In this document: piece by piece, positions 2,541 through 11,422 of the stretch
Numbering within the stretch: position 1 is the stretch's first letter
How the letters are laid out: every line of letters begins with the position of its first letter
IMG/VR virus record: IMGVR_UViG_3300031788_000069
Span: 1-33,498 of that record
Strand: one strand, 5' to 3'
DNA length: 33,498 nt
Source of the DNA: a virus
Made by a program: the position numbers and the translations under genes
The notes under the pieces: model-generated
Databases searched by the model: none
What the model was told of the DNA's origin: nothing
Seen by the model: only the letters and a program-made list of their open reading frames with translations

Positions 2541-3578
2541 TTATTTCTTTTGATGGTTTGCCGCAACTATTTTGAATTCAATCAGCCACTTGAGCTTGCT
2601 TGTGTCGCCATCCACGTATGCCTTCACCGTTTCCGCAAGTTCAGCAACCCGGCCAATGGGAACGACATAATCGAAAACATTGGCCATGACCTTAAGGGTT
2701 TCGCCCGTCCACTCACCATCAACAATCAGAACCCCGAGCAAGTCCTGCGTCTTGCCCTTCCAGTTGATCGCCGAGAACATTTTATCTTTCGCGTAAAGCG
2801 AAGCATGCCGCGATGAAGATTTGCGAACCTCGATAAAGACTTTCGGCTTAACCGCATCTGGCAGGACAAAATCTGCCCGGAAGTTATAAACAACACCCTC
2901 AAGTGCGGTGTATTCGTTTTCTCTCAAAAACTTAACGCCTACGTCCTTCAAAGCGCTGTCAACGATGCTTTCAAACAGCACCCGCCCGATCAAATCCCTA
3001 ACAATGCCCTCCAGCGTGGATTCCACCCGCTGAAGGATTTCGCCTTTGTTGATTGCTCCCGGCTTCACTCTATCGCTTAAAAGTTTCGCCAACTTTGCAG
3101 CCGCAGGTTTAGAAATTGATACATCGGAAGCGCTACCAATTTCCTTTTTAAGGGCAGATTTACTGAAAACACCGGCGACGTGCTGAAAGATGGGAAGTGT
3201 GTAAGGGTTTGCGTGAATGTAATCCGCATCAAATTTTGTAAAACCATCGGTTGCGGTTTCCACGCTATCAAGAAACGTGATACTCGCCCCTCGAATGTCA
3301 CGATAGACACCAAAGGTAATTCCATCCTCCAAACTAAACGGGATGGCTTGGCGTCGCTTCCATTCTTCAACCGTTTCTAGGTCTGATGCAGTCCCGGCAA
3401 TGTCAGGGCTTACACCTAGTCCCGCAAGCAATATTGCGCGCGTGCGCGGCTCGGCAACATCGGCAGCGCTTATAATTGATAATCCAGAGGTAGCCTTTGC
3501 CAAGGCCAAATAGCTGTCGATGCATCTCCGGATTTCGGCATCCGCCAATTGATAAAGTGTTACCGCTTCGGCGCTCAA
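2541..3578 (-). CDS. Type II restriction endonuclease-like protein (PD-(D/E)XK-like)
   Basis: This 345-residue protein is probably the nuclease partner of the adjacent methyltransferase. Residues 233-253 look like a PD-(D/E)XK core: FRADFVLPD with Asp236, then hydrophobic strand KVFIEVRK with Glu250. The residue two after Glu250 is Arg252, not the usual Lys; Lys253 follows. Glu186 in the preceding helix could be the accessory acid. The frame starts with TTG at 3578, whose TTGA overlaps the methyltransferase stop, so expression is probably coupled and lower than the methylase, which would protect the host. The recognition sequence cannot be inferred. Confidence 0.72.
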   Translation of the reverse strand: MSAEAVTLYQLADAEIRRCIDSYLALAKATSGLSIISAADVAEPRTRAILLAGLGVSPDIAGTASDLETVEEWKRRQAIPFSLEDGITFGVYRDIRGASITFLDSVETATDGFTKFDADYIHANPYTLPIFQHVAGVFSKSALKKEIGSASDVSISKPAAAKLAKLLSDRVKPGAINKGEILQRVESTLEGIVRDLIGRVLFESIVDSALKDVGVKFLRENEYTALEGVVYNFRADFVLPDAVKPKVFIEVRKSSSRHASLYAKDKMFSAINWKGKTQDLLGVLIVDGEWTGETLKVMANVFDYVVPIGRVAELAETVKAYVDGDTSKLKWLIEFKIVAANHQKK

Positions 3579-4918
3579 AATGTGCCCCTAATCAATTTCG
3601 GCTTTTGTGCCCTGACAAGATACTCTCCAAGCCCAATCGGGGAACCATCTCGTTTATCGAGTAACCAACGATGGCCACGTTTGCGTACCAGCGTACAAGA
3701 GCAGTCAACATAGCCCAGACTTTCCAGTAGCTCTGCAAGCACTTGCGGAGCGCTAATATGGATACCGTAAAGCGCCGCGTCTGAAATCATTATGTGTGTG
3801 GTGCCCCCTGGTGCAAGGCATCGGTATGCCTCTTTGAAAATATCGGAGAGTTTCGAAAAGTACGGATACACCAGGAAATCATATTCTTTCTTTCCTGCGC
3901 GGGTTATTCTCTCATCTGCCAAAGACTTCACAACGGCGTCCAATTCTGCATGCACCCGCACAGGCAGGTTGCCGCGATACATCATTTGCTTTGGTTTATG
4001 GCCCTTAAGGGCTGTAGTCGTATTAACGAGAAGCTTTGATCTAACCTTATCCGTGATGTCTCCCCAAGATGATGCCATTTCCCAGAAATACAAAAGCATC
4101 CTTGTCATCTCTGCGAAGTCAAAATTATTCAAATATGGTGGCGAGGTAACGACGATGCCAACACTATCGTTAGCGACATCTTTCATGCTTGCCGCATCGC
4201 CTTCGTAAATGGTGCCTAACGACCGATACTGCAAAACACCTTTCATCGTAAGGTCGGTACATATCACATCAAAGACACTCTCTAATGCTTGCCAAGGAGT
4301 GATGAAGGACTTGCGGCTGCTTGGGGCTTTATAGATGCCATCGGTTTGAGAGTGGCAGCACTTCTCCGCCATGCTTGAGAGAATTAAAAACGCAAGATCA
4401 TCATCTTCCATGTTGGCCCTCTTAAGGGCAGCGCGCGCGCCTAGCAGACATTCTAATGACGATAGCGGGAATAACTTCTCAAGGAAAACACGCGGTGACA
4501 ATGCTAGTGAAGTCGTTGAGACGGGGCAAGAAAGCCCTGATGTTATTACATCAAAAATCCGCTTCGCCAGACTTGGCGTTGAAAGATTAGGTAGCTTTGC
4601 CCGCGCAATGCGAGCTAGCACCGGATGCGCTTCATAACCGATTGCCCGAAACCCTTTATGGCATGCCGCTACTGGTGCTGTTGCACACCCGGCAAACGGA
4701 TCAAGAAGTATGGATGATGGTGCTACACGCTCTTGCTCAAGGCATTGCGTTACAAATTCTGGTGAGAAGCCCGCGATGAAATTGAACCAGCGGTGGACGG
4801 CATGGCGGTACGTCGTGGTGTTTGTCGGTAGCCGTTCCGGCGTGATTGCCGAGGAAGCATTTGGTTCCTCGCAATCCTCCCAGAGGGCAAGCTGACTGTT
4901 AGACTGGCGCACTATCAA
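3575..4918 (-). CDS. DNA methyltransferase (m4C/m6A type, SPPY motif)
   Basis: The 447-residue enzyme should methylate the exocyclic amino group of cytosine N4 or adenine N6 using SAM. Motif I is DPFAGCAT (residues 73-80) followed by the acidic GYE (94-96). A GDA element (240-242) precedes the catalytic motif IV TSPPYLNNFD (258-267). An N-terminal motif X-like segment is HRWFNFIAGFSPEF. The order X-I-III-IV differs from the permuted order seen in many SPPY cytosine-N4 enzymes. The start is TTG at 4918, after GGTAGG; a GTG two codons later is an alternative. It is the first gene of the two-gene restriction-modification unit. Confidence 0.88.
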   Translation of the reverse strand: MIVRQSNSQLALWEDCEEPNASSAITPERLPTNTTTYRHAVHRWFNFIAGFSPEFVTQCLEQERVAPSSILLDPFAGCATAPVAACHKGFRAIGYEAHPVLARIARAKLPNLSTPSLAKRIFDVITSGLSCPVSTTSLALSPRVFLEKLFPLSSLECLLGARAALKRANMEDDDLAFLILSSMAEKCCHSQTDGIYKAPSSRKSFITPWQALESVFDVICTDLTMKGVLQYRSLGTIYEGDAASMKDVANDSVGIVVTSPPYLNNFDFAEMTRMLLYFWEMASSWGDITDKVRSKLLVNTTTALKGHKPKQMMYRGNLPVRVHAELDAVVKSLADERITRAGKKEYDFLVYPYFSKLSDIFKEAYRCLAPGGTTHIMISDAALYGIHISAPQVLAELLESLGYVDCSCTLVRKRGHRWLLDKRDGSPIGLGEYLVRAQKPKLIRGTF

Positions 4919-5289: not shown

Positions 5290-5325
5290 GACTTGATTAT
5301 ACAATTGGTATTCAAGATATGCAAG
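5289..5325 (-). promoter_or_regulatory. Promoter/operator copy A
   Basis: On the minus strand TTGCAT (5319-5324), a 17-base spacer and a perfect TATAAT (5296-5301) precede the ATG at 5289 by six bases. The 37-base block recurs at 5830-5866 with four mismatches. An imperfect inverted repeat (CTTGATTA ... TATTCAAG) overlaps the promoter and may be a repressor site. Confidence 0.75.
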
Positions 5326-5829: not shown

Positions 5830-5866
5830 TGACTTGATTATCCCATTGTTAATCAAGATATGCAAG
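5830..5866. promoter_or_regulatory. Promoter/operator copy B, in a divergent gap
   Basis: On the minus strand TTGCAT (5860-5865), a 17-base spacer and GATAAT (5837-5842) face the gene at 5685-5804. A perfect inverted repeat, CTTGATTA (5833-5840) and TAATCAAG (5850-5857) with a nine-base spacer, overlaps the promoter. The plus-strand gene at 5888 begins 22 bases away, so one repressor could control both directions. It matches copy A at 33 of 37 bases. Confidence 0.75.
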
Positions 5867-5887
5867 TAATCTTTGAGCAATTTCACA

Positions 5888-6490
5888 ATGTCAGGCAAAA
5901 ATACCAGTCCCAAGGCCGATTTCAGGAAACAGGAATACGAGCTTGCATCGATAGGTGCAATCAGGCCCCACCCCCGGAATCCTAGGCAGGGCGACGTTGG
6001 GGCCATTCACACCTCCATCGAGCAAAATGGCTTTTTTGGCGCGTGCGTCGCCCAGAAGTCGACCGGATACATCCTCGCCGGAAACCACAGGTACAAGGCG
6101 GCGATTGAGGCGGGTCAACAGGAGGTCCCGGTCCTTTGGCTGGACTGCGACGACGAGCGGGCGCTCAAGGTCCTACTGTCCGATAACAAGACCGCTGACG
6201 AGGCGAGCTATGACCGGAACGAGCTTGCGGACGGCCCTGGGCTTGAGGGTAGCGGTTTCGACGGCGACGAGCTGGACGAGATGATCGCGGAGGCGGCCAG
6301 GGGCGCAACCGAGCCATCCCGGATAGCGCACAACGGCTCCAACTCGGCTCCTCTTGCCTCGCTCAAGTGGCCAGGAGGCGAGTGTAGCGTCTCGCACGAC
6401 GAAGCGCGTGCTCTCACTCAAGCATTCCAGTACTATCGCGAGGAGGTCGGCGTCGGTTTTGGGTTCGTAAACCGACTGCTGGATCGCTGA
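5888..6490 (+). CDS. ParB-like domain protein
   Basis: The 200-residue protein has a ParB/sulfiredoxin-fold domain in residues about 15-105: HPRNPR (28-33), a box II-like GNHRYKAA (65-72) and the following PVLWLDCDDERALKVLLSDN, as in ParB-like domains attached to phage DNA-modification enzymes. The tail (about 155-200, LKWPGGECSVSHDE ... GFGFVNRLL) resembles a small C-terminal domain seen in such proteins. ATG 5888 is preferred to the TTG at 5873. There is no clear ribosome site. The stop abuts the next gene. It is probably not a partition protein, since no ParA or parS is seen; a role in DNA recognition or modification is inferred from its partner. Confidence 0.82.
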   Translation: MSGKNTSPKADFRKQEYELASIGAIRPHPRNPRQGDVGAIHTSIEQNGFFGACVAQKSTGYILAGNHRYKAAIEAGQQEVPVLWLDCDDERALKVLLSDNKTADEASYDRNELADGPGLEGSGFDGDELDEMIAEAARGATEPSRIAHNGSNSAPLASLKWPGGECSVSHDEARALTQAFQYYREEVGVGFGFVNRLLDR

Positions 6491-7875
6491 TGTTTGTCCC
6501 CGACTACCCAACTGTCGGCAACAGGCCAGCAACCTACAATCCGCGGGCAATCAAGGACGAGGGAATCTCGACCTTGCGAGCGTCGCTGAGAGAACTTGGC
6601 GTCGTCAGGCCAGTCGTCGTGACGAAGTCCGGGGTCATCCTCGCCGGACACCAACGCTCGGTGGCAATGCAGGCTGAGGGCATCACCTCTTGTCCGGCGT
6701 ATGTCCTCAGGGATATGCCCATATCCGAGGAGATCCGGTTCAACCAACTCCACAACGGATCGGACATCGAGGTCTGCGGATCACCGATGCGCGTGCCGCC
6801 ACATGCCCCCGGCTTCGTGGAGCTGAGACACAAGGAAGTTCAGGGACATTACAGCGGCTCTAACAAGGCGAGACTCAAGGAGATATGCCGGTTAATGGCC
6901 TTGCACGGGCCTTTCTCAGGCTTTGTGGCGACGGCGAGCGGTGAAGTCCTCGTTGGGGCGATATACGGCCACGCGTGCCGCCTTATGGCCAAACCAGCGC
7001 TATGCTGTTACGTGCCTGACGAACGGCGTGAGGATGTCCTGCGGTACTTCTCCAGGTCCTATGGGCACTATTCCTACGACCACCTATCAAAAACCACCTG
7101 GGCTCAAAGCATGGCCCAGATGAATCGCCTGCGCTCGGAAACCAAAGGCAAGTCCAGGACGTACGAGCTGCAGGTTATCCCCCGCTTGAAGCCAGGCATG
7201 CGGGTCCTCGACTTTGGGGCGGGAAAGTTCGATTACGTCGAGGCGCTCAGGGCCCAGGGGCATGATATCCGGGGGATCGAGTTCTACTACCGTAGGGAAT
7301 TCAACATCGACGTCCCAAGGGTGCATCGCGACATTTCCGAGCTCTGCCGCGAGCTGGGATCGCGCGGGCGCTGGGATATGGTCGTCTGTGATAGCGTCCT
7401 GAACTCGGTCGACTCCAATCAGGCTGAGAGGGACGTCCTTCTGTGCCTCGGAGCGCTCTGCAAGCCTCAAGGATCCATCATCTTCAGTGGGAGGTCCCGC
7501 GAGAAGATTGAGAAGGAAATGAGTGCGGAGACATCGAGCGACACCCGGACTTACGTGCAGTTTCTCGACCACGACGGAGCCTCAGCCATGTTCTCGAACG
7601 GAGTCTGGCTCTACCAGCGTTACCATTCGCGGGCTGATATCGAAAAGCTAGTGAAGTTCTATGGTCCCGAGGGCCGCGCCTACAATTCCGAGGGCAGGGC
7701 TTTTCCGGCCGCCAACACGAGCGGCTGGTGTGTTGTTGCTCCCAACCTCGCGAGCTATCCTCAAGAGGAGATTGAGGAGGCCTTGGGGCGTGAATTCAAC
7801 CTGCCATTACCTGGGGGCAAGTCCTACGGACGTTCAGAGGATATAATCCGGGCATGGCGAACCTTGCTGTACTGA
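6490..7875 (+). CDS. ParB-like domain / SAM-dependent methyltransferase fusion
   Basis: This is a 461-residue multidomain protein. Residues 8-90 are ParB-like (NPRAI, box II AGHQRSVAMQAEG at 52-64). Residues about 128-198 look like a second, degenerate ParB-like repeat (GEVLVGAIYGHACRL, then DERREDVLRYFSRSYGHYSY). Residues about 222-390 are a class I methyltransferase: motif I VLDFGAGKFDYV (239-250), acidic end of strand 2 GIEFY (262-266), WDMVVCDSVLNSVDS (295-309). There is no DPPY or SPPY, so it is not an ordinary amino-methylase; target and product are unknown. It starts one base into the previous stop (TGATG), so translation is coupled. Confidence 0.8.
   Translation: MFVPDYPTVGNRPATYNPRAIKDEGISTLRASLRELGVVRPVVVTKSGVILAGHQRSVAMQAEGITSCPAYVLRDMPISEEIRFNQLHNGSDIEVCGSPMRVPPHAPGFVELRHKEVQGHYSGSNKARLKEICRLMALHGPFSGFVATASGEVLVGAIYGHACRLMAKPALCCYVPDERREDVLRYFSRSYGHYSYDHLSKTTWAQSMAQMNRLRSETKGKSRTYELQVIPRLKPGMRVLDFGAGKFDYVEALRAQGHDIRGIEFYYRREFNIDVPRVHRDISELCRELGSRGRWDMVVCDSVLNSVDSNQAERDVLLCLGALCKPQGSIIFSGRSREKIEKEMSAETSSDTRTYVQFLDHDGASAMFSNGVWLYQRYHSRADIEKLVKFYGPEGRAYNSEGRAFPAANTSGWCVVAPNLASYPQEEIEEALGREFNLPLPGGKSYGRSEDIIRAWRTLLY
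7842..7853 (+). promoter_or_regulatory. Possible internal -10 element for a leaderless start
   Basis: TATAAT (7842-7847) lies inside the end of the methyltransferase gene, exactly six bases before the ATG at 7854, the same spacing as at 5289, 5613 and 22218. No good -35 is seen, so chance in coding sequence is possible. Confidence 0.4.
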
Positions 7876-8333
7876 AGCTGCGGGTGAAGGCAGATGCTTA
7901 TACTTACCTCTGGTTTAAGTCCGTGGAGGGCTTCGAGCCGGCGCACCATTGCGCTCGCTCGTTCAAGGGAGTGTATTCGAAGGGCATCCCCTTTGGAGCG
8001 ATTCCGGTGGGCCGCGAGGTCGTCCTTTCCGTAGATCCGAGGGGCGCCTTTCACTACCTCTGCGGCGTCGTCAAGGGGCGCAACTACCCGTTGAACCTGC
8101 ACTTGCCACTAGCGGCGTCAGCGTCTGGAGAACCGTGGAGGTACGAGGACGATCGCGTCGTCGTAGAAGATCCTGGGGGCGCGTTTGAGGTCCTGCGTCT
8201 GGGGCGCGTCGCCTGTTCCGAGGTCCGCGAGGAGTTCTTGAGCTGCCGCAACTGGCAATTTGGAATGAGGTACTTCTGCGGAGCTGAGTTCTTGGACGGC
8301 GCTGGGGCTCTGCCGCCAGGTCTGCAGGTCTAA
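7854..8333 (+). CDS. Hypothetical protein of the ParB-methyltransferase cassette
   Basis: The 159-residue protein overlaps the end of the methyltransferase gene by 22 bases, so it is in the same unit. It is soluble, with many aromatic and beta-type segments (AYTYLWFKSVEGF, FHYLCGVVKGRNYPLNLHL, EEFLSCRNWQFGMRYFCGAEFLDG) and four cysteines. No domain is recognised. The tight linkage to the ParB-like and methyltransferase genes suggests a partner, for example in a multi-step base modification or its recognition, which is inference. Confidence 0.72.
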   Translation: MANLAVLKLRVKADAYTYLWFKSVEGFEPAHHCARSFKGVYSKGIPFGAIPVGREVVLSVDPRGAFHYLCGVVKGRNYPLNLHLPLAASASGEPWRYEDDRVVVEDPGGAFEVLRLGRVACSEVREEFLSCRNWQFGMRYFCGAEFLDGAGALPPGLQV

Positions 8334-8891: not shown

Positions 8892-9459
8892 AGTCAACTC
8901 GGGCCAATCGATGCAGGACTGGGTTTCGGGCTCGATACACATTCCTACCCTATCCCCTGGAGATGGGGCTTTTGGTTTCGCAATCCGTGGGCGACAGGTA
9001 CAAACTTGCGCGGGCTGTTCCTGGGAATTTTGCAAGTTCCTTTATTCACGCGTACGCGCGATTCACGGGGCTTGGATGGGCACGGACGCTCGCGAATTGC
9101 ACGGCCCGGGCGTTTGGGCACGGACGCTCGCGAAACCTCGCCGGACGGGCAAATAACCGCTGTCCTCGCGTGAAGATGTAATCCGGGAGCGGCTGCAATA
9201 AGCGAGCCGGAGCGGGTGGCGACTGTTACGTAAACAGCGTGCCCCAGGTTCAAAACAGGCTCAAGTCAACAGCGAGTCAACAGTTCCCGGCGTCTCACGA
9301 GGCTTATTAGTCCGTGGGTGCGGGCGACGGCTCCTTGCACCAGCCATCCGAGGGTACCCCCTTGTCCGTGGCGTTTGAGTCTGGGCCCGGGAGGCATCCC
9401 TCACAGGAATTTTTCATTCCCTCGGAATTTCAAACCTCTAATGCAAGACCCCTACAGTA
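8892..9459. other. Gap before terminase genes, with direct repeats
   Basis: No convincing ORF is present. A 20-base direct repeat, TGGGCACGGACGCTCGCGAA, occurs at 9077-9096 and 9115-9134. AGTCAACAG is repeated near 9263-9283. Position just before the small terminase gene is where cos or pac sites and terminase-binding repeats often lie; this assignment is inference. The ORF ending at 8799 can be read upstream to TTG 9035 but the extension lacks support. An 8-codon ORF (MQDPYSNA, 9441-9467) overlaps the terminase start. Confidence 0.55.
9077..9134 (+). repeat. Pair of 20-base direct repeats
   Basis: TGGGCACGGACGCTCGCGAA occurs at 9077-9096 and again at 9115-9134, identical, with starts 38 bases apart. 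They lie about 330 bases before the small terminase gene. Confidence 0.85.
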
Positions 9460-9987
9460 ATGCCTAAGCGAACAGAGACGACGTATAAGCGCACTTCTGA
9501 GATGGAGGATCGCATCCTCACCTTCCTTCGGGCGGGAAACTCCAGGAACGTGGCTTGCCAGTGTGTTGGTCTCTCCTCTCGAAGCATGCGTGTCTGGATG
9601 GACAACGACGATGAGAACGAGGAGCTTGAGGACGAGAACAGATTTCGTGCCCGTGTAGAGCGAGCTGAGGCTGAGGCTTTGGCGGCGGCGGTTGCGGCAG
9701 TGAAGCGTGCGGCTGTCGGGATCCAGGTCAATAAGCGGACGGTCAAGCGCTACAAGGACAAGCTCACGGGTGCGATGGTGGAGGAGACTACCGAGTCGAC
9801 CGAGATCCTAAGCGACTGGCGGGCGGGTGCGTGGCTGCTGGAGCGTAAGGACCCTGAGAATTGGAAAGAGCGGAGGGATGTCACCTCTGACGATAGACCC
9901 ATCATGGCGGCTTTTGACGAGGCCCTAGACAAGATTTACGGAACCCCTGATGCTCTCCCCCAGCCAGCAGAACAGCCAGAGCTTTAG
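9460..9987 (+). CDS. terS: Terminase small subunit
   Basis: The 175-residue protein should recognise the packaging site and load the large subunit on DNA. The N-terminal 55 residues form an HTH-like domain (EMEDRILTFLRAGNSRNVACQCVGLSSRSMRVWM), the centre is a long helical, acidic then alanine-rich stretch (residues 55-90) suited to oligomerisation, followed by WRAGAWLLERKDPENWKERR, a motif frequent in phage small terminases. The gene overlaps the large subunit by 38 bases. There is no strong ribosome site; an upstream 8-codon ORF overlaps the start and may couple translation. Confidence 0.85.
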   Translation: MPKRTETTYKRTSEMEDRILTFLRAGNSRNVACQCVGLSSRSMRVWMDNDDENEELEDENRFRARVERAEAEALAAAVAAVKRAAVGIQVNKRTVKRYKDKLTGAMVEETTESTEILSDWRAGAWLLERKDPENWKERRDVTSDDRPIMAAFDEALDKIYGTPDALPQPAEQPEL

Positions 9988-11422
9988 CCGTTATGCCCAG
10001 GCTGCGCGGGAGCAGGGTGTTAGGAGGGACCAATTCAAGCTCATTACTGAGGGTGGCGCCGTCTTGCAGTCCAAGCAGTTGCGGGCTTGTGCGATGGCGA
10101 GGCTTTGTGATTATTCGGGCGGTCCCGTCGAGATCGGGTATGGAGGGGCGAGAGGTGGGGGAAAGTCCCACTGGATTGTGGTTCAGGTGGCGATCGACGA
10201 TTGCCAGCGTTGCCCTGGCCTGAAGTGCCTTATTCTGCGTAAGGTCGGTAAGAAGGGTCGAGAGTCCTTTGAGGATTTGCGTGCGCGTATCCTCGTCAAC
10301 AAGGTCAAGCATAGGTACAGCGCTCACGAGGGCGTGCTTACCTTCCCCAACGGTTCGCGGATCATCCTGGGGCATTACCAGAACGAGTCTGACGTCGATG
10401 CCTACCTGGGCTTAGAGTACGACGTCATCGCGATCGAGGAAGCGACGACCCTGACGCATGACAAGTACAAGTTCATCAAGACTTGCTGCCGAACCTCGAA
10501 GCAGGATTGGAGGCCAAGGATCTACTGTACGACCAACCCTGGCGGCGTGGGGCATGGCTGGTTCAAGGCGCGGTTCATTACTCCTTTCCGCAAGGGGCAA
10601 GAGACTGAGACTAGGTTCATTGCAGCGACGGTCTACGACAACGACTGGGTAAACGCCGACTACCGAAAGATCCTTGAGGCTCTTACCGGCTGGGAGCGTC
10701 GAGCATATCTCCATGGGGACTGGGATATTGCGGCGGGCCAATTCTTCACCCCGTTCCGGGTCTCCATTCACGTCATCCCTCCGTACGAGATTCCTCTCGA
10801 CTGGAGTACATGGGCGAGTTTCGACTATGGGTTCACCCACTACACAAGCTCGCATGCCTTCGCAAGGGATGGGGACGGCAACCGCCTCGTCTGGGGCGAG
10901 TATGGGCGGCGTAAGTGCTTGCCGAAGGTCCATGCCCAGGGGATTCAAGAGATGGTCGAGTCGAGATGGGGGAGCGGGCGGACCCTGGGGAACCTCAGGT
11001 GTATCGCCAGCGGCCATGACGTGTTCGCGGATACTGGCCGAAAAAATCCGACTGGGGATAAGTCCCAGACGATTGCCGAAGACTATGCCGAGTTGGGCCT
11101 GACCTTGACTCCAGCGAACATCGATAGGATCAACGGTGCGGCCGAGATCCTTGCGGCCCTAGGGGATCCAGACCTAGAACCGACTCCAATCCCGCCAAGG
11201 GTCTTCATTTTCGAAACCTGCGTGCGGCTGATCGAGTGCCTGCCGGCGCTTGTCCATGACCCGCACAGGCCTGAGGATGTCCTCAAGGTCGACTGCGACG
11301 ACGAGGGCGAAGGCGGCGACGACTTCTACGATGATTTTCGCTACGGCATGATGGCTGATGCCCAACGCCAATTCCTTTCGACCCCTCCTGCAGACAGGAT
11401 TCACGGAACCAAAAGACGATGA
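9950..11422 (+). CDS. terL: Terminase large subunit
   Basis: The 490-residue packaging motor has an ATPase domain with Walker A GGARGGGKS (residues 65-73), Walker B VIAIEEA and a coupling-type motif YCTTNPGG. The C-terminal RNase H-like nuclease shows its acidic residues in ASFDYGF, VFADTG and DDFYDDFRYGMM. Length is typical. The start overlaps the small subunit gene and the stop overlaps the portal start (ATGA). It pumps DNA into the prohead and cuts it, docking on the portal. Confidence 0.95.
   Translation: MLSPSQQNSQSFSRYAQAAREQGVRRDQFKLITEGGAVLQSKQLRACAMARLCDYSGGPVEIGYGGARGGGKSHWIVVQVAIDDCQRCPGLKCLILRKVGKKGRESFEDLRARILVNKVKHRYSAHEGVLTFPNGSRIILGHYQNESDVDAYLGLEYDVIAIEEATTLTHDKYKFIKTCCRTSKQDWRPRIYCTTNPGGVGHGWFKARFITPFRKGQETETRFIAATVYDNDWVNADYRKILEALTGWERRAYLHGDWDIAAGQFFTPFRVSIHVIPPYEIPLDWSTWASFDYGFTHYTSSHAFARDGDGNRLVWGEYGRRKCLPKVHAQGIQEMVESRWGSGRTLGNLRCIASGHDVFADTGRKNPTGDKSQTIAEDYAELGLTLTPANIDRINGAAEILAALGDPDLEPTPIPPRVFIFETCVRLIECLPALVHDPHRPEDVLKVDCDDEGEGGDDFYDDFRYGMMADAQRQFLSTPPADRIHGTKRR

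Follow-up and report, generated by a model that had tools for sequence, protein, structure and literature searches.

What does a phage do with a ParB-like protein, a ParB-like domain fused to a methyltransferase, and a third protein that matches no described family, all encoded side by side? We encountered this combination in a complete IMG/VR viral record (IMGVR_UViG_3300031788_000069), analyzed over its whole length of 33,498 bases and referred to below as the window. The record is that of a tailed phage, with genes for a terminase, a Mu-like gpT capsid protein, an S49 protease, a tape-measure protein and an NlpC/P60 protein.

Anatomy of the cassette

The cassette (positions 5888-8333) consists of three open reading frames on the plus strand, to which all cassette features given below also belong. 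As the original prediction had it, the genes overlap tightly: ParB1 (5888..6490) and the fusion gene MT (6490..7875) share 1 nt, while MT and gene 3 (7854..8333) share 22 nt. A single coding G+C pattern runs through all three (0.72 at the third codon position) and each belongs to a conserved family; we may therefore exclude chance reading frames and consider them real genes. ParB1, a protein of 200 amino acids, starts with the ATG at 5888, and a longer form initiated at a TTG at 5873 is possible. It contains a ParB-N domain, detected above the cut-off with Pfam ParB_N (E = 1.8e-6), and matches PHROG ParB-like families with E-values down to 2e-29. We recognized the motifs NPR, GNHRYKA and DNK, as well as a conserved C-terminal E...GFGF segment. 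Upstream of the cassette lies a 22-nt direct repeat, 91% identical between its two copies (5304-5325 and 5845-5866), the second of which stops just short of ParB1. This repeat could function in regulation or in recombination.

The 461-residue MT protein is aligned over its full length with the phrog_5475 profile (residues 2-460 against profile positions 2-456 of 458, E = 2.4e-92), and its AlphaFold model, based on an alignment of 66 sequences, has a pLDDT of 92.8. The N-terminal domain (residues 1-95, 6490..6774) retains intact and nearly invariant YNPR, AGHQR and FNQLHN motifs, with G53, Q55, R56 and N89 invariant among the 66 members. Its match to Pfam ParB_N falls slightly under the cut-off (E = 1.5e-5); in an hmmsearch involving PDB sequences it retrieves Spo0J/ParB with an E-value of 2.6e-13, and its nearest sequences are the chromosomal Spo0J/Noc DNA clamps. 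In the model, the same order of strands and helices recurs in residues ~98-195 (6781..7074). The two segments align in register with hhalign (single-pair E = 2.5e-4, probability 43%), the second having lost GHQR and other ParB motif residues. This segment is likely a second, degenerate ParB-like domain, as suspected initially from the letters of the fusion gene. The proposed anatomy of three ParB-like domains for one enzyme, one in ParB1 and two in MT, is thus upheld.

The remainder of MT (residues 203-461, 7096..7872) is recognized by Methyltransf_23 above the cut-off (E = 2.2e-8). SAM-binding motif I, of the DxGxG type, reads DFGAG (7210..7224), with D241, G243 and G245 invariant in the 66 members, and the SAM-binding acidic residue E264 is conserved. 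With its Rossmann fold, motif I and acidic residue, MT qualifies as a predicted class I SAM methyltransferase of the Methyltransf_23/UbiG class. A search of MT for a (D/N/S)PP(Y/F/W) or PC catalytic motif returned none. The loop following beta-4, which occupies the position of the PPY/PC motif (7387..7410), reads CDSVLNSV, with V303 and S306 invariant and N305 conserved at 98%. Judged by this motif, MT would not be a canonical DNA N6A/N4C or C5 methyltransferase, and the fusion without DPPY or SPPY that had been announced is what we observe. A weak match to Mads2 (E = 0.007) was set aside.

Gene 3 encodes a conserved 159-residue protein of an undescribed family, for which we aligned 60 members. 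Conserved in 60/60 are H32-C33 (7947..7952), Y68, C70, N81, H83, C131-R132-N133 (8244..8252) and F136. The alignment combines 25 members found beside MT (the A3 set) with a second collection fetched by a CRN-based pattern, so that the invariance of C131-R132-N133 is an independent observation in A3 only. We found no match to gene 3 in Pfam, PHROGs, NCBIfam, PADLOC, PDB sequences or PDB folds, in agreement with its initial description as an unrecognized protein. The possibility of a Mu Mom-type GNAT enzyme was considered through the Pfam, PHROG and PDB fold searches, which returned no match for gene 3. Its model is strand-rich (pLDDT 81), and a comparison with BFVD yields two uncharacterized phage proteins as sole relatives; a match to the C2-domain fold (E = 0.055, TM 0.33) is not credible. 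Similarly, tblastn searches with three family members against 50,697 phage records retrieved nothing, and thus did not point to any annotated phage isolate encoding gene 3.

Association of gene 3 with the ParB-methyltransferase pair

ParB1 and MT form a nearly strict pair: among 68 distinct loci, 66 have ParB1 as the gene immediately preceding MT. To describe the position of gene 3, we used 42 distinct viral copies flanked on both sides by 2 kb or more, drawn from a gene-3 scan made without MT and from loci found through MT. MT lies at most 500 nt away in 36 of these copies, on the opposite strand in five cases. The contigs of five further copies (two on L136, two on L076 and one on L104) bear MT as well, which brings to 41 the number of viral copies sharing a contig with MT; the last copy, on the short contig L090, is not accompanied by MT. 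Loci fetched by gene 3 alone also have MT as a neighbor in their great majority, and in cellular genomes reached in the same way MT is present within 500 nt in 14 of 21 cases. Among cellular hosts, Streptomyces olivoreticuli ATCC 31159 (L173) has a prophage that bears the whole triad.

Seen from MT, the association is looser. Of 82 loci with MT, 53 have gene 3 next to it and 29 lack gene 3; furthermore, a gene-3 query proven to work retrieved no copy elsewhere in the 30 records searched in which MT lacks gene 3. Such figures would fit a gene 3 that travels in the late region as a passenger with no relation to its neighbors, ParB1-MT alone being functional. However, a passenger should not be expected to share its contig with MT in nearly every viral copy, in both orientations, and to be gained and lost repeatedly beside it. 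On well-supported branches of the MT tree, the presence of gene 3 changed at least 10 times and the reversed orientation arose at least three times, indicating that the association re-forms and is not a frozen inheritance. We thus hold the passenger explanation to be improbable, at roughly one chance in ten. ParB1, MT and gene 3 constitute a recurrent module, not a chance cluster; the pattern resembles that of a functional tie, and gene 3 is best read as a dedicated yet optional partner.

Two further observations were discarded. The correlation of MT distances with gene-3 distances (0.68) equals that of an MT/terminase control (0.68) and was dropped as evidence of linkage. A 239-residue gene that follows MT in an E. 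coli phage-plasmid was considered as a possible gene 3, and the gene-3 profile matches nothing there.

The triad had been presented as unrecognized. In the open literature searched, where an absence counts for little, we found no description of the triad, of the second ParB-like domain or of gene 3. On the other hand, the triad recurs widely and the fusion is already catalogued as phrog_5475, a family annotated with no function and whose annotation includes neither the link to gene 3 nor the second ParB-like domain.

Terminase neighbors and plasmid relatives

In the window, the cassette is followed on the plus strand by genes for the terminase small subunit (9460..9987; phrog_4102, E = 4.2e-14) and large subunit (9950..11422; Pfam Terminase_3, E = 5.5e-15). 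MT precedes a terminase large subunit in many contigs, with at least four Pfam types of terminase involved. The ParB1-MT pair is immediately 5' of the terminase genes in Bacteroides phage BS-TP3, and a few genes ahead of them in Gordonia phage Evaa and Escherichia phage 613R2. We may hypothesize from this proximity to unrelated terminases a CTP- or SAM-dependent packaging switch, in which the cassette would mark or occupy the packaging site for the adjoining enzyme. However, the cassette is kept while the type of terminase varies, some loci have no recognized terminase inside the flank retrieved, MT of a Brochothrix phage is located far upstream amid replication genes, and Chloroflexales genomes hold tandem arrays of MT. 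A packaging switch therefore appears unlikely, with a probability only slightly above that given to the passenger explanation for gene 3. Of note, an imperfect palindrome (9033-9074) is present upstream of the small-subunit gene, accompanied by two exact 20-nt copies of TGGGCACGGACGCTCGCGAA (9077-9096 and 9115-9134); as a whole, this region (9033-9134) is a possible packaging or operator site.

ParB domains also evoke partition, and the cassette could represent the maintenance genes of a phage-plasmid. The ParB1-MT pair is present on 62 plasmid records, mostly E. coli plasmids of 47-49 kb, and the single one examined, from ATCC 25922, bears phage genes. Against this explanation, the methyltransferase is fused to ParB and no ParA-type ATPase (PF01656) is found in the source record; the same family is matched in 2 of 48 contigs searched. 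Nor did the record contain any site with up to three mismatches to the parS consensus TGTTNCACGTGAAACA, a search that would miss a divergent phage site. The original prediction saw neither ParA nor parS and held partition to be unlikely; we agree and regard it as the least probable of the explanations considered here.

The cassette shares with the chromosomal ParB/Noc (Spo0J) CTPase clamps a ParB-N domain with a GxxR box. It differs from them by the absence of ParA, parS and a recognized helix-turn-helix, and by GHQR in place of GERR; of the features for CTP binding and hydrolysis, the sequence shows remnants of motifs only. Closer in organization are genes 1 and 2 of phage Evaa, annotated as ParB-like nuclease and ParB-N-like methyltransferase, which represent the same ParB1-MT pair with a terminase downstream; this phage has no gene 3, and its identity with our MT does not exceed 22-25%.

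Possible DNA modification and its alternatives

The companionship of ParB-like domains and phage DNA-modification enzymes, invoked in the original prediction, has a published precedent. Phage CmoX has ParBc gene neighbors, and fusions of ParBc to DNA methyltransferases are frequent; the function of ParBc beside DNA-modifying enzymes is called unknown by the CmoX authors (PMC12783734). ParB-fused methyltransferases are also represented by phrog_498 and PADLOC MTase_II, which likewise join ParB-N to a methyltransferase, and ParB1 itself matches phrog_498 with an E-value of 1.5e-19. However, the phrog_498 and PDLC03229 matches span the ParB region only, whereas the methyltransferase of MT is of the Methyltransf_23/UbiG class. 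Phage methyltransferases fused to ParB, ParBc beside modification genes (PMC12783734) and the MT family itself were thus already known.

In two related phages (contigs L035 and L036), ParB-ParB-MT-gene 3 is preceded by ThiF-like, acyl-carrier, radical-SAM or DUF5131, and CmoA-like genes, and gene 3 is followed downstream by a Dam-like/GNAT fusion; this list includes genes found on one or both contigs, some on one only. The CmoA-like protein has CmoA as its best PDB match (E = 2e-30). The clusters are compact (L035, 1-11561; L036, 364-14501), also include KilAC, again with not all genes on both, and are candidates for multi-step base hypermodification. They resemble the published CmoA/CmoX/CmoY loci (PMC12783734) in having ParBc beside SAM enzymes and a CmoA relative just upstream, but CmoX belongs to the C5-methyltransferases and bears an SPPC motif, which MT lacks. 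When we looked for signs of CmoX-type Cx-SAM carboxymethylation, SPPC was absent from MT and CmoA from the source record, which has no radical-SAM gene either. Out of about 65 contigs examined for CmoA, it occurs in two, the close relatives L035 and L036, and Cx-SAM was rejected as a general donor on this ground.

Radical-SAM proteins have a wider, still sporadic, connection with gene 3. In Chloroflexales, gene 3 is fused C-terminally to a domain that matches the PA0069/Rv2578c (DUF5131-like) radical-SAM families. Such fusions are found in L153 (8984-10480), L160, L161, L164 and L168, with MT on other contigs. In three of these genomes, MT is present on other contigs, in tandem; L182 and L183, from Chloroflexales genomes, hold tandems of two or three MT genes. 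On virus contig L186, MT and two copies of gene 3 are found together with three ParB genes and a radical-SAM ORF. In L148, gene 3 comes after a DUF1848 gene. Overall, confident radical-SAM/DUF5131 matches occur in 8 of 50 contigs with gene 3 versus 0 of 29 without it (Fisher p = 0.024), a post hoc comparison between contigs of unmatched sizes that does not count one weak match, below threshold, on the side lacking gene 3. With DUF5131 alone, the p-value is 0.15. A radical-SAM protein as general partner was rejected, these contigs being a minority of those with gene 3.

Considering its nearest relatives, the methyltransferase could act on something other than DNA. The best PDB folds for the domain (E = 1e-7) are glycine N-methyltransferase and CcbJ, with Trm9 lower down, and small-molecule and tRNA-wobble methyltransferases, including UbiG, are its nearest folds and profiles altogether. 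A match to a non-nucleic-acid family with no linked phage genes had been named at the outset as evidence that would count against DNA modification: the match is indeed found (glycine N-methyltransferase, CcbJ, UbiG), but the cassette is strongly tied to phage genes. According to this alternative, the enzyme would target a free nucleotide, another small molecule or tRNA, and the ParB domains would bind nucleotides, resulting in an altered host nucleotide pool or a disarmed nucleotide-based defense. That the ParB/Srx superfamily takes in nucleotide-hydrolysing enzymes (PMC10853773) is in its favor. However, MT domain 1 is nearest to DNA clamps, an extra, separate ParB is nearly always there in the form of ParB1, and L035/L036 place the cassette in CmoA, Dam-like and radical-SAM company. 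We estimate that there is about one chance in five that this alternative is correct.

DNA modification is the best reading of the cassette, which we give an even chance of being a phage DNA (hyper)modification module. This reading is drawn indirectly from the phage context, the ParB precedent (PMC12783734) and the neighbors in L035/L036. It is consistent with a location in the late region of phages, with relatives in Escherichia, Bacteroides and Gordonia phages, and with conserved SAM-binding residues. The lack of a PPY/PC motif and the best match to small-molecule enzymes argue against it. The interpretation initially proposed is upheld in part. What we observe directly stops at the genes and their linkage, domains, conserved motifs and phage setting; the DNA target, the chemistry, the part played by CTP, the metal or catalytic role of gene 3 and the benefit are inferences.

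As a module acting on DNA, the cassette might operate as follows. ParB1 and domain 1 of MT would attach to phage DNA, perhaps in the manner of clamps gated by a nucleotide such as CTP, and hold the methyltransferase there, the degenerate domain 2 serving as a scaffold. MT would use SAM, although not as a standard amino- or C5-methylase. In tRNA, enzymes of the Trm9 class perform the finishing step on a side chain that the base already carries; by analogy, MT would most likely methylate an unusual position or a group already attached to the base. Gene 3, with its five invariant Cys/His residues and its Arg and Asn, may be an optional second enzyme or a cofactor-bearing subunit acting on the same substrate, with a possible metal-binding or catalytic role for these residues. 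The resulting modification would protect phage DNA against nucleases.

More tentatively, and with odds well below even, gene 3 might be the first member of a family of enzymes that lack known structural relatives and use Cys, His, Arg and Asn residues in their active site; together with the ParB-guided, PPY-less methyltransferase, it would build a not-yet-known DNA base modification. Such a modification would be common among phages and prophages across many bacterial phyla, and would extend to some archaea-assigned contigs. If the cassette does modify DNA, it would add a DNA-modification chemistry to the counter-defense repertoire of phages and provide a function for an unassigned PHROG family and for a conserved protein family outside Pfam. 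The strict ParB1-MT pairing could likewise help to understand why so many DNA-modifying enzymes have ParB domains as companions.

Elsewhere in the window, a TSPPY methyltransferase is encoded on the minus strand (3575-4918; PADLOC MTase_II, E = 6.8e-44). Its gene overlaps that of a 345-residue protein on the same strand (2541-3578), which matched nothing in family and PDB searches and carries a PD-(D/E)XK-like stretch, ADFVLPDAVKPKVFIEVRKS. Together, the two genes are likely a phage type II restriction-modification pair, and the 345-residue protein is possibly an undescribed restriction endonuclease.
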